Assembly (NCBI GenBank): GCA_019449455.1
Contig: JAGRPO010000078.1
Coordinates: 1 to 34,482, forward strand
Origin: Betaproteobacteria bacterium
GTDB taxonomy: Bacteria; Pseudomonadota; Gammaproteobacteria; Burkholderiales; Usitatibacteraceae
Length of the DNA stretch: 34,482 nt
Direction: 5' to 3'
The notes under the pieces were generated by a model that saw only the letters and a list, made by a program, of their open reading frames with translations, did no database searches and had not been told where the DNA came from. Below are positions 2,957 to 34,482 of the stretch, piece by piece. The position numbers and the translations under genes were made by a program. The first letter of the stretch is position 1. Each line of letters opens with the position of its first letter.

Positions 2957-2970
2957 GGGGTGAAATGATA
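2957..2970 (-). promoter_or_regulatory. possible -10 element for a leaderless PrpF-fusion transcript
   Basis: On the minus strand TATCAT (plus-strand 2965-2970, 5 of 6 matches to TATAAT) lies 8 nt before the ATG at 2956. There is no Shine-Dalgarno sequence between them (TTTCACCCC). No good -35 element is seen at the usual spacing. If the element is real, transcription would begin at or next to the start codon. This is a weak call. Confidence 0.25.
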
Positions 2971-3025
2971 GCCTTTGATCTGTCCGCGATCCGCGCACCG
3001 CCCGTACCAGCCCTGGAGAATTTCC

Positions 3026-3949
3026 TTGCACGCCATCCTGTCCCGAGCCGTCCTCGCCGTCCTCGCCACCCTGCTCCCCGCCGCCGCCTTGGCGCAGTCG
3101 CCCATGCGCGTCGTCATCCCCGCCGAGGCGGGCACCGCCTGGGACCGCGCCGGCCGGGCCCTGGGCTCCGGGCTCCTCGCCGTGAAGGCCGCCACCCAGG
3201 TCGAGTACGCCAACCGGGGCGGCGCCGGCGGGACGCAGGCCCTGGCGGGGTTCCTCCAGTCGGCGAAGAACGACCCGGACGCCCTCTTCGTGGCGGGCCA
3301 GGACCTCGTCATTGCCGCCGAGTTCGACGCCACCGCGCCGCGCCTGCAGGACGCCACGCCGGTGGCGCGCGTCGCGCTCAGCCACTTCGCTGTCTTCGTT
3401 CCCGCCGGATCCCCCCACCGGTCCATGGCCGACCTCGCGCGCGCCTTGAAGGCCGATCCCGCGGCCATCGCCTGGGACGCGGGCGCACGCGGCAGCGCCG
3501 AGCACCTGCTGCTCGCCTACCTTGCCAAGACCGTCGGCGCGGACCCGTCGAAAGTTCGCCTGGCCCCCTCTGCGCAGGCGGCCACGGCGGGCGTGGGCAA
3601 GCTGCGCGAGGTCGCCGAGGCCGTGAAGTCCGGCCGCGTGCGGGCCCTGGCCGTCACTTCCCCCGCGGCCACGGGCGGGATCGCCTCGCTCAAGGAGCAG
3701 GGCATCAACCTCGTGTTCGCCAACTGGCACGGGCTCTTCGCCGGGCCGGGGCTGCGCCCCTCGCAGCGCGACGAGCTTCTCGCGAAGGCGAAGGCCGCGC
3801 TCGACACCCCGGGATGGAAGGCGCTCCTCGCGTCCGAGGGCTGGACGCCGGTGTGGCTGCAGGGATCGGACTACGCCCGCTTCCTCGACGAGGAGACGCG
3901 AAGCCTCGGCTACCTCGCCCGGTCCCTGGGGCTTCGTCCGCGCCGCTAG
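3026..3949 (+). CDS. TctC-family tripartite tricarboxylate transporter receptor (periplasmic solute-binding protein)
   Basis: The protein has 307 aa and belongs to the Bug/TctC receptors, which bind carboxylates in the periplasm for TctAB-type carriers or for signalling. I chose TTG at 3026 because GGAGAA at 3015-3020 gives a 5-nt-spaced ribosome binding site and because the product then begins with a clean signal peptide (hydrophobic segment 4-22, cleavage near ALA-Q at 23/24). The frame is also open from a TTG at 2975, which would add 17 polar residues. The mature protein starts with RVVIPAEAGTAWDRAGRALG, typical of the family. No TctA or TctB gene is in the window, which is usual for the very numerous orphan Bug proteins of betaproteobacteria. 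It is divergent from the PrpF-fusion gene and may share control and substrate class with it. Confidence 0.85.
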   Translation: MHAILSRAVLAVLATLLPAAALAQSPMRVVIPAEAGTAWDRAGRALGSGLLAVKAATQVEYANRGGAGGTQALAGFLQSAKNDPDALFVAGQDLVIAAEFDATAPRLQDATPVARVALSHFAVFVPAGSPHRSMADLARALKADPAAIAWDAGARGSAEHLLLAYLAKTVGADPSKVRLAPSAQAATAGVGKLREVAEAVKSGRVRALAVTSPAATGGIASLKEQGINLVFANWHGLFAGPGLRPSQRDELLAKAKAALDTPGWKALLASEGWTPVWLQGSDYARFLDEETRSLGYLARSLGLRPRR

Positions 3950-3954
3950 CCGCG

Positions 3955-4473
3955 ATGGCCGAGAGCGCGCTCCTGCGCTTCTACCGCCGCGCCGGCGGCG
4001 ACCATCGCGGCCGCGGCCTCGACGACATCCGCGCCTTCGACACCGCGCGGCTGGAAGGCACGCACGATTTCATCCAGTGGCTCTTTCCCCTGCCCGAGCC
4101 CAGCGGCGCGAGCGCGCACGCGCCGATCCTCACGCGCGAGGACATCGCGGCCTTCACGGCCGATCCGACGCTGCGCGAGGAGCTTCGCAAGTCGCTGGAC
4201 GCGATGCTCGCGTTCTACGGGCTGGAACGCCGCGGCTCGGGGGAGGAGACCGCCATCACCCGCGCGCCCGGCTACGCGTCGCGCAGCGCCGAGTGGCTGG
4301 ACCGCCCGCACAATTTCCTGCGCATCAGCCGCATCCTGCGCTGCCTCGCGCTGCTGGGATGCAGGCCGGAAGCGCGCGCGCTCCTCGCCTGCCTGGAGGA
4401 GGTCGTCAGGGAAAACGGCTGGGCCGTGGGTTCCGACACCCTGGGCTACTGGCGCAGGGCCGCCGCCTCCTAG
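3955..4473 (+). CDS. bacterial protein with opioid growth factor receptor (OGFr) conserved-region domain
   Basis: The protein has 172 aa from ATG 3955, 5 nt after the TctC stop. The segment RGLDDIRAFDTARLEGTHDFIQWLFPLPEPS (residues about 20-50), then APILTREDIAAF and LRKSLDAMLAFYGL, matches the OGFr N-terminal conserved region found in small cytosolic bacterial proteins of unknown function. A tail with DRPHNFLRISRILRCLALLG follows. There is no signal peptide or membrane segment. The name comes from an animal receptor and says nothing about the role here. Its stop (TAG, 4471-4473) overlaps the stop of the convergent Lrp-type gene within the palindrome CTAG. Confidence 0.75.
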   Translation: MAESALLRFYRRAGGDHRGRGLDDIRAFDTARLEGTHDFIQWLFPLPEPSGASAHAPILTREDIAAFTADPTLREELRKSLDAMLAFYGLERRGSGEETAITRAPGYASRSAEWLDRPHNFLRISRILRCLALLGCRPEARALLACLEEVVRENGWAVGSDTLGYWRRAAAS

Positions 4474-5076: not shown

Positions 5077-8000
5077 ATGACGACCCCGAATCCGCCCGCC
5101 CTCGCCCGCCGCGGCTCGCCGCTCCGGGAAGCCATCACCGCCGCGTACCGCCGCGCCGAACCCGATGCCGTCGCCGCGATGCGCCCGGCCGCCACGTTCG
5201 ACGAGGCCGCGCTGGCCCGCATCCGCTCCCGCGCCGGCGTCCTCGTGCAGCGCGTGCGCGACGAGCGCTCCGGCGCCTCCGGCGTGGACGCGCTGATGAG
5301 CGAGTTCAACCTGTCGTCGGAGGAAGGCATCGCGCTCATGTGCCTGGCCGAGGCGCTGCTTCGCATCCCCGACACCGGCACCGCCGACCGCCTGATCCGC
5401 GACAAGCTCTCGCGCGGCGACTGGCGATCCCATGTCGGCGGCAGCCAATCGCTTTTCGTCAACGCCGCCTGCTGGGCGCTGGTCGTGTCGGGCGCGCTCG
5501 CCCGCGCGGAACCCGAGCCGAGGGGCCTGGACGGCGCGCTCACGGCCCTCCTCGGGCGGGCCGGCGAGCCGGTGATCCGCGCGGCGACCCGGGCCGCGAT
5601 GGGATACCTGGGCTCCCAGTTCGTGCTGGGCGAGACGATCGGCGAGGCGCTGTCGAAAGCGCGCCGGAAGGAAGCGCGCGGCTACCGCTACTCCTTCGAC
5701 ATGCTGGGCGAGGCGTCGATGACGATGGCGGACGCCGACCGCTACCGCGAGATCTACCTCGAGGCGATCGACGCGGTGGGACGCTCCTCGGCCGGGCGCG
5801 GCATCTACGCGGGGCCCGGCGTCTCGGTGAAGCTCTCGGCGTTGCACCCACGCTACTCGCGCGCCCAGCACGGCCGCGCGATGGCGGAGCTGCTGCCGCG
5901 GCTCAAGGAGCTCATGGCGGCCGCGAAGCGCCGCGACATCGGCCTCACCGTCGACGCCGAGGAGGCCGACCGGCTGGAGCTCTCCCTCGACCTGCTCGAG
6001 GCGCTCGCCTTCGACCCGGATCTCGCCGGCTGGAACGGCTTCGGCTTCGTGATCCAGACGGTGCAGAAGCGCGCCCCGAACGTCGTCGACTGGGCGCTCG
6101 ATCTCGCGCGGCGAAGCGGGCGGCGCCTCATGATCCGGCTCGTGAAGGGCGCGTACTGGGATTCCGAGGTGAAGCGCGCGCAGGTCGCCGGCCATGACGA
6201 CTACCCGGTGTTCACGCGCAAGAGCCACACGGACATCGCCTACCTCGCCTGCGCCCGCAAGCTCCTGGCCGAGCCGGCGCTCGCGTTCCCGCAGTTCGCC
6301 ACGCACAACGCCGCCACGCTCTGCCAGGTGATGGAGCTGGCGGGGGAGAACCGGGACTTCGAGTTCCAGTGCCTGCACGGCATGGGCGAGACGCTCTACG
6401 ACCAGGTGGTCGGCGCGAGCGAGTTCGGCCTGCCCTGCCGCATCTACGCCCCCGTCGGCACGCACGAGACGCTGCTCGCCTACCTGGTGCGGCGGCTCCT
6501 CGAGAACGGCGCCAATTCCTCCTTCGTGAACCAGATCGTGGATCCGGGCGTCCCGCTCGAGCGCCTGCTCGAGGACCCGGTCACCGCCGCCATGCCGTTC
6601 CGCGGCAGCCCCCATCCGCGCGTCCCCGCCCCGCCGGCGCTGTATCCGGATCGCCGCAATTCGAGCGGCATCGATCTCACCGACGAGCACGCGCTCGCCT
6701 CCCTCGATGCGGCGCTCGCGGCGGCCGCGGCGCAGTCGTGGGTCGCCGCGCCGATGCCGGCTCACGGCACGTCGCCCGCCGGCTCGGGCGCTGTTGCCGC
6801 CGTGCACAACCCCGCGCGCGCGCACGAAGTCGTGGGGCTGTGCACCGACGCCACCCCGGCCGACATCGATCGCGCACTCGCGCTGGCGCGCGGGGCCGAT
6901 GCCTGGCGGTCGAGCGCTGCCGGGGAGCGCGCGCGCATCCTGGAGCGGACCGCGGATCTCCTCGAGGAAAATGCCGCGCGCCTCGTCCACCTCGCCGTTC
7001 GCGAGGCCGGCAAGACGCTTCCGAACGCCGTCGGCGAGGTCCGCGAGGCGGTCGACTTCTGCCGCTACTACGCGTTGCGCATTCGCGAGGAACCCCCCGG
7101 CGAGCCCCTCGGCGTGGTGGCGTGCATCAGCCCCTGGAATTTCCCGCTGGCGATCTTCCTGGGCCAGGTCGCCGCCGCGCTGGCCGCGGGCAACGCCGTC
7201 ATCGCCAAGCCCGCGGAGCAGACGCCCCTCATCGCGGCCGAGGCCGTCCGTCTCCTGCGGCAAGCCGGCCTGCCCGCCGAGGCGCTGCAGTTCCTTCCCG
7301 GCCCGGGCGAGACGGTGGGCGCCGCGCTGGTGGCCGACCCGCGCGTGGACGGCGTGGTGTTCACGGGCTCGACCGAGGTCGCGGCGATCATCCACCGCAC
7401 GCTCGCCGCGCGCGGCAACGTCGCGCTGATCGCGGAAACCGGCGGCCAGAACGCCATGATCGTCGATTCCTCCGCGCTGCCCGAGCAGGTGGTGGCCGAC
7501 GTGCTCGCTTCCGCCTTCGACAGCGCCGGCCAGCGCTGCTCAGCGCTTCGCGTCCTCTGCCTGCAGGAGGAGATCGCCGGGCGCGTCCTGCCCATGCTCG
7601 CGGGCGCGATGCGGGAGCTGGCCGTCGGCGATCCCGCCCTGCTCGAAACCGACGTCGGCCCGATCATCGACGCGGCCGCGAAAGCGGGACTGGACGCCCA
7701 TGTCGCCCGTCTCGAGAAGACCGCGAAGCTCGTCGCGCGCACGCCGGTGCCGGCCGGGCTCGCGGGGCACTTCGTCGCGCCCGTCGCCTTCGAGATCGGC
7801 TCGATCGCCGAGCTCGATCGCGAAGTGTTCGGGCCCGTCCTGCACGTGCTGCGGTTCCGGGGCGGCGAGCTGGCCAGGGTCGTGGACGACGTGAACGCCA
7901 CCGGCTTCGGCCTCACCCTCGGCATCCACAGCCGCCTCGATTCCACGATCGATTTCATCCTCGACCGCGCGCGCGCCGGAAACGTCTACGTGAACCGCAA

Positions 8001-8799
8001 CATCGTGGGCGCCGTGGTCGGCGTGCAGCCCTTCGGCGGCGAAGGCAAGTCCGGCACCGGCCCCAAGGCCGGCGGCCCGGTCTACCTGCGCGCGTTGGCG
8101 CGCGGGCCCGTGACCGGCGCCTGGCTTCCCGACGTCGCGCCGCCCGGCGCGGCCGCCGCGCCTGCCGCCGGGTTCGACGACGCGGTCGCGGCACTGGCCG
8201 CCGCCGCGCCCGGCCTCGGGTCGCTCGATCGCCTGCCGGTGCTCGCCGCGCTCGGACGCCAGGGCGGCGACGCCGTCGCATCGCTCGCGAAGGACCTCGC
8301 CGCGGCCGTCGAGGAGGGCCGCGAGCGCGAGCTGGCCGGGCCCACGGGAGAGCGCAACACGTGGCGGACGCACTCGCGCGGCCTCACGGTCGCGATGGGC
8401 GACGAAGGCGATCACGCGATGGCGTGGCTCGCGCAGGCGATGGCCGCGATCGCCGCGGGCAATCCTGTTCTGCTCGCTGCGCCCGGCAACGCGTCCACCG
8501 CATCGCGAATCGCCGCGTGGGTACGCTCCGCCGGCTGGCCGGCGATCGCCGCCGCGCCAGCGGCCGTGCACGCCTGGGCGAAGCTGCCTGCCCTCGCGGC
8601 GGTCATGGCGGGAAGCGCGACGCTAGCCGCCGTTGCATGCGCCGCCGTCTCGGCGAGGGACGGGGCGCGGATCCCGGTCGTCGAGCCCTGCGGCCCGGCG
8701 TGGCGCTACCCGGTATGGCGCCTCGAAACGGAGCGCACGGTCTCGGTCAACACGGTCGCCGCCGGCGGCAATGCGCACTTGCTGGCGCAGATGGACTGA
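5077..8799 (+). CDS. putA: bifunctional proline dehydrogenase / L-glutamate gamma-semialdehyde dehydrogenase (PutA, long form without RHH domain)
   Basis: The protein has 1240 aa and oxidises proline to glutamate in two channelled steps, an FAD-dependent PRODH step and an NAD-dependent aldehyde dehydrogenase step, at the inner face of the membrane. The N-terminus enters directly into the PutA domain I region; there is no ribbon-helix-helix DNA-binding domain. The PRODH barrel spans roughly residues 170-460, with RLVKGAYWD at 354-362. The ALDH domain spans roughly 540-1010, with catalytic Glu787 in AETGGQNA and nucleophile Cys821 in QRCSALR. A C-terminal ALDH-superfamily-like domain follows and ends with the conserved tail TVSVNTVAAGGNAHLLAQ. 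This layout is the long, non-regulatory PutA type. Regulation is therefore likely by the divergent Lrp-type gene. No clear Shine-Dalgarno precedes ATG 5077. Confidence 0.97.
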   Translation: MTTPNPPALARRGSPLREAITAAYRRAEPDAVAAMRPAATFDEAALARIRSRAGVLVQRVRDERSGASGVDALMSEFNLSSEEGIALMCLAEALLRIPDTGTADRLIRDKLSRGDWRSHVGGSQSLFVNAACWALVVSGALARAEPEPRGLDGALTALLGRAGEPVIRAATRAAMGYLGSQFVLGETIGEALSKARRKEARGYRYSFDMLGEASMTMADADRYREIYLEAIDAVGRSSAGRGIYAGPGVSVKLSALHPRYSRAQHGRAMAELLPRLKELMAAAKRRDIGLTVDAEEADRLELSLDLLEALAFDPDLAGWNGFGFVIQTVQKRAPNVVDWALDLARRSGRRLMIRLVKGAYWDSEVKRAQVAGHDDYPVFTRKSHTDIAYLACARKLLAEPALAFPQFATHNAATLCQVMELAGENRDFEFQCLHGMGETLYDQVVGASEFGLPCRIYAPVGTHETLLAYLVRRLLENGANSSFVNQIVDPGVPLERLLEDPVTAAMPFRGSPHPRVPAPPALYPDRRNSSGIDLTDEHALASLDAALAAAAAQSWVAAPMPAHGTSPAGSGAVAAVHNPARAHEVVGLCTDATPADIDRALALARGADAWRSSAAGERARILERTADLLEENAARLVHLAVREAGKTLPNAVGEVREAVDFCRYYALRIREEPPGEPLGVVACISPWNFPLAIFLGQVAAALAAGNAVIAKPAEQTPLIAAEAVRLLRQAGLPAEALQFLPGPGETVGAALVADPRVDGVVFTGSTEVAAIIHRTLAARGNVALIAETGGQNAMIVDSSALPEQVVADVLASAFDSAGQRCSALRVLCLQEEIAGRVLPMLAGAMRELAVGDPALLETDVGPIIDAAAKAGLDAHVARLEKTAKLVARTPVPAGLAGHFVAPVAFEIGSIAELDREVFGPVLHVLRFRGGELARVVDDVNATGFGLTLGIHSRLDSTIDFILDRARAGNVYVNRNIVGAVVGVQPFGGEGKSGTGPKAGGPVYLRALARGPVTGAWLPDVAPPGAAAAPAAGFDDAVAALAAAAPGLGSLDRLPVLAALGRQGGDAVASLAKDLAAAVEEGRERELAGPTGERNTWRTHSRGLTVAMGDEGDHAMAWLAQAMAAIAAGNPVLLAAPGNASTASRIAAWVRSAGWPAIAAAPAAVHAWAKLPALAAVMAGSATLAAVACAAVSARDGARIPVVEPCGPAWRYPVWRLETERTVSVNTVAAGGNAHLLAQMD

Positions 8800-28055: not shown

Positions 28056-29339
28056 TCACTTCTTCGCGTCGTCGCTCGAGTAGGTCACGCGGTAGAGCGC
28101 GCCCGCGAAGTCGTCGCTGATCAGCATCGAGCCGTCCTTCATCATCGCGACGTCGACCGGGCGGCCGCGGTACAGGCCGGTTTCGCCGTCGAGCCAGCCT
28201 TCCGCGAAGACCTCGGTCTTGTCGGCCGTTCCGTCGGCCTTGAGGGTCGTGAACATGATGCGCGCGCCGATCGGCTTGGTGCGGTTCCACGAGCCGTGCT
28301 GCGCGGAGAAGAGGCCCCCACGATACCTGGCCGGGAACTTGCTGCCCGTGTAGAACGCGAGGCCCAGGTCGGCCGCGTGCGCGTCCATGTAGACCTGCGG
28401 GTCCGTGATATTGGGCGGCAGCGGGTCCTTGTCGTAGCCCTCGTCGGTCATGCGCGTGCGGCCCTGCTTCCAGGGGTAGCCGAAGAACATGCCCGCCTTG
28501 GTGGCGCGGTTGATCTCGCCCGCGGGAATGTCGTCTCCCATGCCGTCGGTCTGGTTGTCGGTGAACCACAGCGACTTGTCCTTCGGGTTGAATTCAAGGC
28601 CCACCGAGTTGCGCAAGCCCGTCGCATAGACCTCGCGCTTGGAGCCGTCGAAGGCGTTCATGCGCACGATGCCGCCGATTCCCCACTTGTTGAAGAGCGC
28701 GAGCTTGGCGCGCGGCGGAACGTTGAACGGCTGGCCGAGCGTGATGTAGAGCATGCCGTCGGGGCCGATGCGGCAGGTGCGGGCGTGGTGGTTGTACGAC
28801 TCTTCCTCGGGAGGGATCAGCTTGCCCTGCGCCACCACCTCGATCACGGCGACGTCGCCGCCTTCGTAGAAGAACTCGGCGGCCGGGAAGTTGAGCACCC
28901 GGTTGTGCTCGACCACGACCAGGAACCCGTCCTTGGTCCAGCAGACGCCGTTGGGCACGTGGAACTTCGCCGAAGGCGCGAAGGGCTTCACCTCGTCGGC
29001 GATGCCGTCGCTGTTGCGGTCGGTGACGGCCCAGACCGTGTTCTTGCGCGTGCCGACGAACAGCATGTTGGTCGACGGCGCCACGGCCATGTGCCGCGCG
29101 TCCGGCACGATCGCATAGAGGTCGATCCGGAAGCCCGGCGGCAGCTTGATGCGCTTGAGGTTCGCGCGGATGGCCTCGGCATTCCGGCCTTCCTGCGCCA
29201 CGGGCGGCAGGCTCGCGTCCACGCCCGAGAGCTTCATTTGCTTGAGGTTCTCGATGTTCTGCTGCTGCGCGGAAGCGATCATCGGCAGCGCAAGCGCCAA
29301 CGCGGCAACCGCAATTCCCAACGGCTTCGAGGCAGTCAT
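28056..29339 (-). CDS. PQQ-dependent sugar / L-sorbosone dehydrogenase family protein
   Basis: The protein has 427 aa with a signal peptide (MTASKPLGIAVAALALALPMIASA, cleavage near 24). The six-bladed propeller of the soluble glucose/sorbosone dehydrogenase family is recognisable from ARHMAVAPSTNMLFVGTR, HVPNGVCWTKDGFLVVVEHNRVL, NHHARTCRIGPDGMLYITLGQP, ATGLRNSVGLEFNPKDKSLWFTDN and QHGSWNRTKPIG. It oxidises a sugar or similar alcohol/aldehyde in the periplasm with PQQ and passes electrons to a cytochrome c, probably the next gene. The substrate is unknown. A good ribosome binding site (GGGAGAAAG) precedes ATG 29339. It is divergent from kaiC. Confidence 0.9.
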   Translation of the reverse strand: MTASKPLGIAVAALALALPMIASAQQQNIENLKQMKLSGVDASLPPVAQEGRNAEAIRANLKRIKLPPGFRIDLYAIVPDARHMAVAPSTNMLFVGTRKNTVWAVTDRNSDGIADEVKPFAPSAKFHVPNGVCWTKDGFLVVVEHNRVLNFPAAEFFYEGGDVAVIEVVAQGKLIPPEEESYNHHARTCRIGPDGMLYITLGQPFNVPPRAKLALFNKWGIGGIVRMNAFDGSKREVYATGLRNSVGLEFNPKDKSLWFTDNQTDGMGDDIPAGEINRATKAGMFFGYPWKQGRTRMTDEGYDKDPLPPNITDPQVYMDAHAADLGLAFYTGSKFPARYRGGLFSAQHGSWNRTKPIGARIMFTTLKADGTADKTEVFAEGWLDGETGLYRGRPVDVAMMKDGSMLISDDFAGALYRVTYSSDDAKK

Positions 29340-29725: not shown

Positions 29726-31468
29726 ATGCTGAAAACCGTCCGCTCCCCGCTCCGGAAGGTGCCTGGCAAGGCGCCGACCGGCATCGCGGGATTCGATGCA
29801 ATCACCGGCGGCGGCCTGCCACGCGGTCGCACGACGCTCCTGGTGGGCGGCGCCGGCTCGGGCAAGACCGTGCTCGCGCTGCAATTCCTGGCGCATGGAG
29901 CGCGAGCCTGCAAGGAGCCGGGCATCTTCGTCGCCTTCGAGGAGCCATCGGAGCGCGTCGTGGAAAATGCCGGCAGCTTCGGCTGGAAGCTCGAGGAATT
30001 GCAGCACCGAAGGCTGTACTTCATGGACGCCCGGCCCTTTCCCGACGTGGTCCAGTCCGGGGATTTCGATCTCGGCGGAATGCTGGCGGCGCTGGAGGCC
30101 AAGACCCGCGAAATCGGGGCGCGGCGCATCGTGTTCGATGCCCTGAACAACGTGCTGGCGCTGCTGCCCGGCCCGGCGGCGAGAAAACGGGAACTCTTCC
30201 GGCTGCACGAATGGCTCGTGGCGCGCGAACTGACGGGCCTCATCACCTTGCAGACCGGCGGGGACGAGGCGGGCACCATCGGCCAGGAGCCGTCCGGCTT
30301 CATGCAATTCATGGTGGACTGCGTCGTGATCCTCAACCACAGCGTGGTGCAGGGCGTATCGCAACGCAACCTGCGCGTGCAGAAGTACCGCGGCTCCGGC
30401 TTCGACGAGGACGAGGCACCGTTCCTGATCGGCAGTGGCGGCCTGGACCTGGCGGTCGCGCGGGCGCCGGGCCGCGCCGGCCTCAAGGTGACCACCGAGC
30501 GCGTGTCCAGCGGCGTGGAGCGGCTCGATACCATGCTGGGCGGCGGCTACTACCGCGGCGCCAGCGTGCTGATCACCGGCTCCTCCGGCACGGCCAAGAC
30601 CACGTTGAGCGGTGCATTTGCCGAGGCGGCCTGCCGTCGCGGCGAGCGCACCCTGTTCTTCAGCTTCGATTCGGAATACACCGAGGTGATCCGCAACCTG
30701 GCCTCGGTCGGCATCCGGCTGGATCGCTACGTGAAGAACGGGTGCCTGCGCATCATCCCGGCACGAACGATCACCGGCAGCGCAGAGGTCCACCTCGGGC
30801 GCTTCAAGACGCTCGCGAGGGAACACTCGGCGCGATGCATGGTGATCGACCCCGTGTCCTCCTGGTCCACATCCGGCAACGACTCGACCGCCCAGGGCGT
30901 GGCCGAACGCCTGATCGACTGGGCCAAGTCCGAAGGCATCACCCTGGTCTGCACCAAGCTGCTCTCCGGGACGTCCAGTCCGGTCCAAGGCGGCTTGCCG
31001 CTGCAGATATCGACGCTCGCGGACACCTGGATCCACCTCAACTACCTGGTCCAGGCCGGGGAACGCAACCGCGGCCTGTCGATCGTCAAGTCGCGTGGCA
31101 CGGCGCATTCCAACCAGGTGCGCGAGCTGATCCTCAGCGACGCGGGGGTGACGCTCGCCGACACCTACACCGCCGGCGGCGAGGTGCTGATGGGCACGAT
31201 GCGCTGGGAAAAGGAAAGCGCCGAGCGCGGCGCGCATGAAGCCGCCGAAGTCGCCACGAAGCTCAAACGCGTCCGGCTGGACGCCGAGGAGGCCGAGCTG
31301 GCCGTGCGTTTGAAGGCGCTGCAGGTGGAAATCGAGGCGAAGCAGATCGAGAAGGCGTTGCTGGCCCGGACCACGCAGACCCACAAGGGCGAGTTGTCGC
31401 AGGGCCGCACCCGGATGCATGAGCTGCGCGGCTCCGACGCGCCGAAGCCGGGGCGGAGGAAGCCGTGA
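29726..31468 (+). CDS. kaiC: KaiC-family double RecA-domain ATPase
   Basis: The protein has 580 aa from ATG 29726 (MLKTVRSPLRKVPGKAPTGIAGFDAI), with AGGGG about 7 nt upstream. It has the two tandem domains of KaiC. CI carries Walker A GGAGSGKT (41-48) and catalytic Glu72-Glu73 (FVAFEEPSE). CII carries GSSGTAKT (285-292) and the segment QISTLADTWIHL, with Ser429-Thr430 at the place of the Ser431/Thr432 autophosphorylation pair of the cyanobacterial protein. In CII the usual catalytic Glu-Glu is Asp315-Ser316. Residues about 500-580 are a charged, Ala/Glu/Lys/Arg-rich extension with coiled-coil character that cyanobacterial KaiC lacks. It is the first gene of an operon with kaiB, overlapping it by 4 nt. 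No kaiA is present, as usual outside cyanobacteria. It could act as a damped timer or stress switch rather than a true clock. Confidence 0.95.
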   Translation: MLKTVRSPLRKVPGKAPTGIAGFDAITGGGLPRGRTTLLVGGAGSGKTVLALQFLAHGARACKEPGIFVAFEEPSERVVENAGSFGWKLEELQHRRLYFMDARPFPDVVQSGDFDLGGMLAALEAKTREIGARRIVFDALNNVLALLPGPAARKRELFRLHEWLVARELTGLITLQTGGDEAGTIGQEPSGFMQFMVDCVVILNHSVVQGVSQRNLRVQKYRGSGFDEDEAPFLIGSGGLDLAVARAPGRAGLKVTTERVSSGVERLDTMLGGGYYRGASVLITGSSGTAKTTLSGAFAEAACRRGERTLFFSFDSEYTEVIRNLASVGIRLDRYVKNGCLRIIPARTITGSAEVHLGRFKTLAREHSARCMVIDPVSSWSTSGNDSTAQGVAERLIDWAKSEGITLVCTKLLSGTSSPVQGGLPLQISTLADTWIHLNYLVQAGERNRGLSIVKSRGTAHSNQVRELILSDAGVTLADTYTAGGEVLMGTMRWEKESAERGAHEAAEVATKLKRVRLDAEEAELAVRLKALQVEIEAKQIEKALLARTTQTHKGELSQGRTRMHELRGSDAPKPGRRKP

Positions 31469-31755
31469 GCCGCCCTGCCCGATTCAGGTTCCGGCTTTAT
31501 GTGGCCGGCGACGCGCTGAATTCCGGGCTCGCGCATGCCAACCTGACGGCGCTGTGCCGCCAATACCTGCCGGACAGGCACGAGATCGAAGTCGTGGACG
31601 TGTTCCGGGAGCCGAAGCGCGCACTCGAAGACGGCATCCTGCTGACGCCGACCCTGGTAAAGCTTGCGCCGTCCCCCACCCGAAGGATCGTCGGCACCCT
31701 CGGCCAGATCCAGCCCGTGTTGCAGGCGCTGGGCCTGGAAGCCTTGGCTCCATGA
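31465..31755 (+). CDS. kaiB: KaiB-family protein
   Basis: The protein has 96 aa from GTG 31465, overlapping the kaiC stop as GTGA, with GGAGG about 6 nt upstream. It keeps the KaiB core: FRLYVAGDALNS (thioredoxin-like first strand and helix), IEVVDVFREP, ILLTPTLVKL and PSPTRRIVGTL. The length is that of short KaiB proteins (cyanobacterial KaiB is about 102 aa), without the acidic C-terminal tail. KaiB binds the KaiC CI ring after a fold switch; whether this one switches cannot be judged by eye. Its stop overlaps the ATG of the next gene as ATGA. Confidence 0.95.
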   Translation: MSRPARFRFRLYVAGDALNSGLAHANLTALCRQYLPDRHEIEVVDVFREPKRALEDGILLTPTLVKLAPSPTRRIVGTLGQIQPVLQALGLEALAP

Positions 31756-34482
31756 AGAGGAAGGCCTCGCTGCCCCGGCCGGACGCGGAAGAACAGGAGC
31801 TTTCCGCGCTGATCGAGACCTTGCACCGCACCGGTCAGCGCCTGGAGGAACTGACGGCGGGCGAGGTGGACGCAGTCTCGGATCGCGAAGGCCGGACGTT
31901 CGTGCTGCGGCGCGCCCAGGAACAGCTGCGCATCAGCGAGGTCGCGAAGCAGGCGGCGATTCTCGATGCGCTGCCCGCGAATATCGCGTTGCTCGATGCC
32001 CACGGGCGCATCGTTTCCGTGAACGAGGCGTGGCGGCAGTTCGCCGGCGCGAATGCGCTCCGGACCCCGGATTACGGCGTCGGCGCCAGTTACGTCGACA
32101 TTTGCGACCGCGCGGACGCCGACGACGCCTCCGAGGCCCGGCAGGTGGCCGAAGGCATCCGGTCGGTCCTGAGCGACGGGTCGAAATTCTTTTCGATCGA
32201 ATATGCCTGTCATTCGCCGGCGAGGCGGCGCTGGTTCCTGATGACGGTGACGCCCATGGCCGAAACGGGCCTGCACGGCGCCGTGGTCATGCACCTGGAC
32301 ATCACGGAGCGAAGGCAGGCCGATGACGATCTCCGGGAATCGAAGACCCTTCTCCAGCTCGTCGTGGAGAACGTGCCGCAGCGCATATTCTGGAAGGATC
32401 GCCAACTGCGCTACCTCGGCTGCAACACCCGGTTCGCGAAGGACGCCGGACGCTCCACTCCCGGCGAACTGGCGGGCAAGACCGATTTCGACATGGCGTG
32501 GAAGGATCAGGCCGAGTTGTACCGCGGCGACGACAAGGCGGTCCTGGCCTCGGGCGTGCCCAGGCTCGATATCGAAGAGCCGCAGACGACGCCGGATGGA
32601 CGCACGATCTGGCTGAGCACGTCCAAGGTGCCGCTGCGCGACGGGGAGAGCCGGGTCATCGGGATCCTCGGTCTCTACCAGGACATCACGGAACGCAAGC
32701 TGGCCGCCCAGGCGTTGTTCGAAAGCGAGCGGCGCTTCAGCGACATGCTCGACAACGTCCAGCTGGTGTCGGTGATGATCGACCGCGAAGCGCGGATCAC
32801 GTACTGCAACGAATACCTGCTCCGCCTGACCGGCTGGCGACTCGAGGAGGTCATCGGGCAAGACTGGTTCGAACTCTTCCTGCCCCCGGAACTCGGCGAC
32901 TTGAAGGGAGAGTTCTTCGAGGCGCTCCTCGCGAGCCAGCCCGAGGTTTCGCATCACGAGAACGAGATCCTGACGCGCACGGGCGGGCGCCGGCTCATCC
33001 ACTGGAACAACTCGGTGCTGCGCTCGGCAAGCGGCGACGTGATCGGTATCGCGGGCATCGGCGAAGACGTCACCGAGCGCAAGACGGCCGAAGCAAGGGT
33101 CGCCTACCTCAGCCGCGTCCATGCCATGCTGAGCGGCATCAACGCGCTGATCGTGCGCGTGAAGGACCGCGGAGAACTGTTCACGGAAGCATGCCGCATC
33201 GCGCTCGAGGCGGGCGGGTTTCGCATGGCCCTGGTCGTCATCGTCGACCGGCTCTCGCGCAAGGCCGAAGTCGTGGCCTCCGCGGGCAAGGACGAGAGCC
33301 TGCTTGGCGCCGTCAGGGAACTTCTGCGCTCGAACGAGCATGCGCCCAATACCATGATCGCCCAGGCGGTGAGCGGGAAAGTGCCCGTCGTATCCAACGA
33401 TTCGCAAAGCGACCCGCGCGTCCTGCTCGGCACGCGGTACGCCGAATCCGGCATCCGCTCCATGGCCCTTTTCCCGCTGGTCGTCGCGCAGGAGTCGGTA
33501 GGCGTCCTCTCGTTGTACGCGAGCGAGCTCGACTTCTTCCATGAGGACGAGTTGAAGCAGCTGACGGCGCTGGCGGGCGACATCGCGTTCGCGATCGATC
33601 ACCTCGACAAGCAGGCCCGGCTCGATTACCTCGCCTACTACGACGCGCTCACGGGTCTCGCGAACCGGACCCTGTTTCTCGACCGGGTGGCGCAGTCCCT
33701 GCGCGGCGCGGCCAGCGGCGGGCACAAGGCAGCGTTGTTCCTGATCGACCTGGAGCGGTTCAAGAACATCAACGACAGCCTCGGCCGGCCGGCCGGCGAC
33801 GAGATCCTGGCGCAGGTGGCGGATTGGCTGGCGCGCAGGGCCGGCGACGCCAGCCTGGTGGGGCGATTGGGCGCGGACCATTTCGGCGCGCTGCTGCCGG
33901 AAGTCAGGCGCGACGGCGACCTGGCGCAGCTCGTCGAGAGCACGCTGGAGTCCTTCGCGGGCCATCCTTTCCGCCAGGGCGACTCCGTGTTCCGGCTCGC
34001 CGCCAAGGTCGGAGCGGCGGTGTTCCCGGATGACGGCACCGACGCCGACACGCTGTTCAAGAACGCCGAGGCCGCGCTCAAGAATGCCAAGGCGAGGGGC
34101 GACCGATACCTGTTCCACACCCGCAAGATGACCGAGGCTTCGGCCGGCAAGCACACCCTGGAAAATCAGCTGCGCCTGGCGCTGGACAAGGGCGAGTTCG
34201 TGCTCCATTACCAGCCCAAGGTGAGCCTCGCGAGCGGCAAGCTCACCAGCGCCGAGGCGCTGATCCGGTGGAACGATCCGCGAACCGGCCTGGTACCGCC
34301 GGGCCGGTTCATCCCGCTCCTGGAAGAAACCGGGTTGATCTATGACGTCGGGCGCTGGGCGCTGCGCACCGCCATCGCGGACTACCTGCGCTGGCGCAAT
34401 GCCGGACTGGCTGCCGTGCGAATCGCGGTGAACTTGTCTCCGCTCCATCTGCGTCGTCGCAGCTTCATAGCAGACATCGGAC
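31752..34482 (+). CDS. PAS-PAS-PAS-GAF-GGDEF-EAL signalling protein, 3' end missing
   Basis: The frame is open from ATG 31752 to the right edge (910 codons), with the start inside the kaiB stop (ATGA). Residues 1-65 are a helical N-terminus with GEVDAVSDREGRTFVLRRAQEQLR, a segment I associate with sensor proteins of this type. PAS domains lie at about 68-185, 195-312 and 325-440, each closed by D(I/V)TER. A GAF domain follows at about 455-615, a GGDEF domain at 625-790 and an EAL domain from about 808. The GGDEF signature is degenerate, GADHF at 707-711, and the usual GH of GHxxGD is GR, so cyclase activity is unlikely. The EAL part shows intact EAL at 835-837 and the VNLSPLHL segment. It is probably a c-di-GMP phosphodiesterase, but the remaining catalytic residues lie outside the window. 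No transmembrane helix is seen, so it is likely cytosolic, near KaiC/KaiB. Confidence 0.92.
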   Translation, partial: MKRKASLPRPDAEEQELSALIETLHRTGQRLEELTAGEVDAVSDREGRTFVLRRAQEQLRISEVAKQAAILDALPANIALLDAHGRIVSVNEAWRQFAGANALRTPDYGVGASYVDICDRADADDASEARQVAEGIRSVLSDGSKFFSIEYACHSPARRRWFLMTVTPMAETGLHGAVVMHLDITERRQADDDLRESKTLLQLVVENVPQRIFWKDRQLRYLGCNTRFAKDAGRSTPGELAGKTDFDMAWKDQAELYRGDDKAVLASGVPRLDIEEPQTTPDGRTIWLSTSKVPLRDGESRVIGILGLYQDITERKLAAQALFESERRFSDMLDNVQLVSVMIDREARITYCNEYLLRLTGWRLEEVIGQDWFELFLPPELGDLKGEFFEALLASQPEVSHHENEILTRTGGRRLIHWNNSVLRSASGDVIGIAGIGEDVTERKTAEARVAYLSRVHAMLSGINALIVRVKDRGELFTEACRIALEAGGFRMALVVIVDRLSRKAEVVASAGKDESLLGAVRELLRSNEHAPNTMIAQAVSGKVPVVSNDSQSDPRVLLGTRYAESGIRSMALFPLVVAQESVGVLSLYASELDFFHEDELKQLTALAGDIAFAIDHLDKQARLDYLAYYDALTGLANRTLFLDRVAQSLRGAASGGHKAALFLIDLERFKNINDSLGRPAGDEILAQVADWLARRAGDASLVGRLGADHFGALLPEVRRDGDLAQLVESTLESFAGHPFRQGDSVFRLAAKVGAAVFPDDGTDADTLFKNAEAALKNAKARGDRYLFHTRKMTEASAGKHTLENQLRLALDKGEFVLHYQPKVSLASGKLTSAEALIRWNDPRTGLVPPGRFIPLLEETGLIYDVGRWALRTAIADYLRWRNAGLAAVRIAVNLSPLHLRRRSFIADIG

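Follow-up and report, generated by a model that had tools for sequence, protein, structure and literature searches.

Our main finding is that genes placed third, behind kaiC and kaiB, share an N-terminal module of about 50 amino acids, whatever output domain they carry. The module begins all 74 of the third genes aligned, and one more that is cut by a contig end (L084), so that each of the 75 readable examples has it. Note that it is the module that is added here; the gene order is already known. The constancy of the module directly behind kaiB, with outputs that differ, points to a likely Kai docking piece. Put another way, an unchanging N-terminus joined to exchanged outputs is the pattern to be expected if it docks on one driver common to all. 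The initial annotation of this DNA missed the module.

The window, meaning the whole stretch of 34,482 nucleotides analysed, is the entire contig C218 of a metagenome-type assembly of 3.48 Mb. It contains kaiC, kaiB and a third gene, which we call X (Table 1). As initially annotated, adjacent genes overlap by 4 nucleotides at both junctions. Between kaiC and kaiB (CCGTGAGCC), the TGA stop codon at 31466-31468 overlaps the GTG start codon at 31465-31467. Between kaiB and X (CCATGAAG), the TGA at 31753-31755 overlaps the ATG at 31752-31754. A protein search within the same genome located the continuation of X on contig C332, where the remainder of the EAL domain is found and the gene ends at base 939. 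Bases 1-511 of C332 overlap window positions 33972-34482 at 97.8% identity, and the two contigs combined give a full X protein of about 1053 amino acids. The break within X is likely due to strain variation in the bin. Upstream, a sorbosone-dehydrogenase-like gene (28056-29339, minus strand) diverges from kaiC, and the gene after X, on C332, is convergent on the opposite strand. Hence, X closes the operon. Scanning the kai region for promoters gave no match, which is uninformative.

Table 1. Positions of the kai operon genes, and of motifs and domains they encode, in the window.
Feature	Position	Strand	Description
kaiC	29726..31468	+	two-domain KaiC ATPase, 580 aa; PF06745 x2; best solved relative 8dba
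CI Walker A GGAGSGKT	29846..29869	+	KaiC residues 41-48
CII Walker A variant GSSGTAKTT	30578..30604	+	KaiC residues 285-293
CII catalytic Glu-pair position	30668..30673	+	here Asp315-Ser316
CII phosphorylation-site pair Ser429-Thr430 (QIST)	31010..31015	+	equivalent to S431/T432 by alignment
kaiB	31465..31755	+	96 aa; GTG start, 4-nt overlap with kaiC stop
X (third gene)	31752..34482	+	PAS3-GAF-GGDEF-EAL; ATG start, 4-nt overlap with kaiB stop; truncated by contig end
N-terminal module of X	31791..31949	+	residues 14-66: helix, LTAGEVDAV, beta hairpin, helix
PAS domain 1	31962..32324	+	X residues 71-191; conserved within clade
PAS domain 2	32364..32699	+	X residues 205-316
PAS domain 3	32733..33071	+	X residues 328-440
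GAF domain	33165..33599	+	X residues 472-616
GGDEF domain	33633..34100	+	degenerate motif RLGADHF
EAL domain, first half	34164..34482	+	EALIR, IAVN

The kaiC product (P0001) has two KaiC domains (PF06745, 3.5e-84). It scores above the cut-off for NCBIfam PRK09302 (463 bits against 408) and below the curated cut-off for the circadian KaiC equivalog TIGR02655 (263 bits against 546). The KaiC of Rhodobacter sphaeroides (8dba) aligns to residues 14-557, including the C-terminal tail, which is charged and coiled-coil-like after about residue 495. The CI domain looks complete, with an intact catalytic FEE at residues 71-73. At the corresponding place CII reads FDSEY, where FEE is expected, and the catalytic Glu pair is absent. 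Hence, phosphorylation cycling may be reduced. Most of the KaiC clade has D-S at this position, and a few members have D-E or D-T; the Ser of the CII phosphorylation pair is nearly invariant and the Thr is mostly kept. With CII Walker A of the form GxxGTAKTT followed by FDS, and CI intact, the whole clade is one with an altered kinase domain. The kaiB product (P0002) matches PF07689 (9.2e-20; 70.6 bits, above the cut-off of 27) and scores under the NCBI circadian cut-off. The operon had been annotated as KaiA-less. Consistent with this, PF07688 had zero matches in the genome, and the S. elongatus control was matched by the same search.

The X protein (P0003) contains three PAS domains, a GAF domain, a GGDEF domain (3.1e-34) and, in the window, the first half of an EAL domain (8.8e-27). 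The remaining EAL motifs (LEITE, DDFGTG, LKID, AEGVE and MQGF) are on C332, hence the catalytic set is complete. The same motifs are intact in all 35 complete homologues. The GGDEF motif is more varied: among 36 homologues, 17 have GADHF or GADQF, 10 an intact motif, and nine none that is recognisable. In X, the degenerate GGDEF domain is probably not a cyclase. Complete EAL motifs beside a degenerate GGDEF lead us to predict c-di-GMP hydrolysis as the chemistry of X. The domain architecture in the initial annotation is confirmed, with the correction that the GGDEF motif is degenerate. The link drawn there between Kai and c-di-GMP gains from the 35 homologues with intact EAL motifs; its direction, from Kai to the enzyme or from the sensor to Kai, we can only infer.

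A single search of genome contigs found 80 relatives with KaiC identities of 48-78%. These come from several proteobacterial lineages, and from metagenome-assembled genomes (MAGs) labelled Verrucomicrobia, Acidobacteria (Terracidiphilus), Bacteroidetes and Myxococcales. The order kaiC-kaiB-X recurs in nearly all relatives, so that about 75 further loci were recovered, and the overlap of kaiB with X is exactly 4 nucleotides in 58 of 73 loci. Hence, the arrangement is not chance, and both a conserved neighbourhood and the translational coupling originally proposed for the three genes are strongly supported. In KaiA-less bacteria, KaiC and KaiB often come with a signalling gene in third place, tightly coupled to theirs. 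The type of partner is a smaller surprise than first stated. This is because a 2011 report already describes non-cyanobacterial kaiC-kaiB clusters as having, almost always, a histidine kinase or GGDEF/EAL protein encoded immediately downstream (PMC3164672). We therefore rejected gene order as a novelty.

Across the loci, X is of the GGDEF/EAL type in 40 cases, a histidine kinase in 17 and a Crp/Fnr-type regulator in seven; the rest are cut or mixed. The module-bearing Crp/Fnr-type genes (L099, L100-L104 and L107) are in Competibacteraceae/Contendobacter and Rubrivivax MAGs. They would be a direct transcription output of the Kai operon. On a KaiC tree of 81 rows, built with a quick method, the output must have switched among EAL, HK and Crp at least nine times, and four to five of these switches are required by branches with strong support. 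Within the family of the window, only one other genome (G023) has a close kaiC copy, and there too a module gene follows kaiB; this kaiC is absent from seven genomes of the same genus. Some loci are arranged differently. Two long loci of the same clade (L066 and L077) have kaiC-kaiB without a third gene. In four genomes (L121, L130, L131 and L132), two tandem kaiB genes precede the module-bearing gene. On the Rhizobium plasmid pRPC2, an EAL gene (L124, 10824-13577) lies two genes behind kaiC-kaiB-HWE kinase.

The module has the consensus EIxALIxxLHxTxQRLExLTxGEVDxVxDxxGRxFLLRxAQExLRxxE. Pfam scans of 55 members gave no real match, the best (E 0.0034) being to a DUF, and we rejected the idea that this is a known Pfam domain. 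An AlphaFold model made with 52 homologues predicts, with high confidence, a helix (10-34), a hairpin (41-43/49-51) and a second helix (53-73) that runs into PAS. A PDB fold search with the module plus the first PAS domain returned PAS matches only among the best 50 listed. The model of a Crp-type partner has the same order of elements at low confidence (66), and we draw no support from it. In most X proteins the module precedes PAS. However, it directly precedes HisKA in L108, and Crp-type domains, without PAS, in L099-L104. Since the module stands ahead of all three alike, it is not part of PAS. Mean identity within the clade is about equal for the module (53%) and the first PAS domain (49%), whereas other clades are reached by the module alone. 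A recognisable form, RRRLxEAEETLxAIRxGEVDALVV, occurs in histidine kinases adjoining kaiC-kaiB in R. sphaeroides 2.4.1, Rhizobium, Sinorhizobium and Falsirhodobacter. The module-bearing protein of R. sphaeroides 2.4.1 is its KaiBC-linked HWE kinase.

A module profile, trained on Kai-linked genes, was run over a class sample of 274 genomes and, after broadening to the R. sphaeroides type, a phylum sample of 329. Both samples were also searched for KaiB with PF07689. The class sample gave seven module matches and the phylum sample nine, always one per genome. Every match (7/7 and 9/9) was directly 3' of KaiB on the same strand. Together these represent 15 distinct genomes, since G000 is in both samples. 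Scoring in these searches was limited to the 19-23 best first-look candidates of each genome, so we repeated the search with up to 150. Among 17 kai-bearing genomes this deeper scoring gave 21 matches, 19 of them at kai loci, one of which (L156) was newly recovered. Of the other two, L157 sits at a contig start, where the neighbourhood is undecidable, and L158 (G618:C75:14175-14315) lies away from KaiB. The latter has a decayed motif, GNAKETI in place of GEVDAV, and this PAS protein is possibly a detached paralogue. There were zero matches at E<=0.001 in 19 control genomes, six of which have KaiB in other arrangements. In the control-genome run, G023 matched only at its kai locus. Leaders similar to the module precede PAS kinases. 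The module as a general leader of this kind is unsupported, almost all detectable copies being behind kaiB.

The operon can be compared with known systems. The 'orange group' of the 2011 report is alike in gene order, kind of partner, and ST or SS phosphorylation sites; a shared N-terminal module, Crp/Fnr partners and repeated output exchange are not described in the sections of that report available to us (PMC3164672). The KaiC-KaiB hourglass of R. sphaeroides (PMC10076222; PDB 8dba and 8fwj) has the order kaiC-kaiB-X, a tailed KaiC, no KaiA, and the same module in the partner. However, its KaiC is 36.7% identical to that of the window (tblastn) and belongs to a different KaiC clade. It also has the CII Glu pair with S-S sites, whereas the window has D-S at the Glu pair and S-T sites. 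Its partner is an HWE histidine kinase, and the output of the window partner is EAL. The R. sphaeroides type of hourglass is further characterised by a dodecamer formed through a coiled coil and by phosphorylation that ATP/ADP sets. The kaiC-B-PAS/HK arrangement is present in both Rhodopseudomonas palustris and R. sphaeroides (PMC4794148). The R. palustris operon also has three genes and lacks KaiA, but its output is a histidine kinase (PMC4794148). With cyanobacterial KaiABC and SasA/CikA, the likeness is in the KaiC and KaiB homologues and in the expectation of a state-dependent output partner. In contrast, KaiA is absent here and the N-terminus of X is a predicted helix-hairpin-helix, whereas that of SasA is KaiB-like; a Pfam domain search found no such KaiB domain in P0003. 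The open-access papers that we searched yielded no account of this common module, or of its tie to Crp/Fnr outputs, which is not proof of absence.

We give slightly better than an even chance to the following explanation. KaiC and KaiB would act, without KaiA, as a switch or hourglass with a dedicated output, all in one translationally coupled operon, and the module would couple Kai state to c-di-GMP hydrolysis. In R. sphaeroides, the KaiA-less KaiC/KaiB switch changes state with nucleotide and phosphorylation (PMC10076222). Similarly, ATP or ADP and the phosphorylation state of KaiC would govern KaiB binding. KaiB, or a KaiC-KaiB ring, might then dock on the helix-hairpin-helix module of X, as suggested by its position and conservation. 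Docking would change the signalling helix, the second of the module, that enters the PAS/GAF array. This would set the activity of the predicted C-terminal EAL phosphodiesterase, with environmental information added through the PAS and GAF inputs. The outcome would be c-di-GMP hydrolysis that depends on Kai state. Several points weigh against this explanation: kaiC-kaiB occurs without X at L066 and L077, CII of the window KaiC has D-S at the catalytic Glu pair, seven genomes of the same genus lack this kaiC, and the module profile was trained on Kai-linked genes. More broadly, the module may serve generally as the docking domain through which KaiC-KaiB pairs lacking KaiA, that of R. sphaeroides included, control interchangeable outputs, in a modular grammar of clock output distinct from SasA/CikA; here the chances seem evenly balanced. 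The outputs so controlled would be c-di-GMP phosphodiesterases, HisKA and HWE kinases, and Crp/Fnr regulators.

Signals could instead flow the other way. X would then sense through PAS and GAF, and set or reset KaiC and KaiB through the module, with EAL serving other targets or being an input itself. X is indeed rich in sensory domains, and the coupling and module conservation fit both directions. Furthermore, c-di-GMP reportedly affects timing in S. elongatus, whose clock changes in period and phase when c-di-GMP is altered (PMC13001216). Hence, crosstalk between c-di-GMP and a clock exists in one organism, which also counts in favour of the main explanation. However, the module is kept while the output swaps (EAL, HK or Crp/Fnr), as would suit one driver acting through several outputs, and PAS domains are few or absent in partners of the Crp and L108 types. 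We consider the input direction quite unlikely. A mobile origin is possible, though still unlikely. Here, the operon would be a sporadic mobile cassette that plays no part in timing, and the Kai proteins would switch stress responses according to energy state. The patchy distribution, with G023 alone in its family having a close kaiC, the spread of KaiC homologues across several phyla and the loss of the CII catalytic Glu pair would all suit such a cassette, which nevertheless agrees with the favoured explanation save for the word 'timer'.

The module could also merely travel with the operon as a folding or dimerisation cap. If so, it would serve PAS proteins in general for dimerisation or N-terminal capping, its link with kaiB would be inherited operon membership, and co-expression would occur without binding. 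Signalling helices ahead of PAS are common, and in most X proteins the last module helix enters PAS. Conversely, the HisKA (L108) and PAS-free Crp-type (L099-L104) proteins also carry the module, and PAS-rich genomes yield zero second copies. We regard a simple cap as decidedly improbable.

If the module does dock Kai proteins, c-di-GMP, kinase and transcription outputs would fall under one Kai logic. The module would then bear on how KaiBC-only systems outside cyanobacteria hand on their state, including that of R. sphaeroides, whose structures are solved. Being short and constant, with varying outputs, it is a precise and cheaply testable target, and searches with its profile could find Kai-controlled outputs. 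Elsewhere in the window, a bacterial open reading frame (2965-4473) encodes a C-terminal OGFr_N domain, a region of the opioid growth factor receptor, and is adjoined by a proline utilisation A gene (5077-8799).
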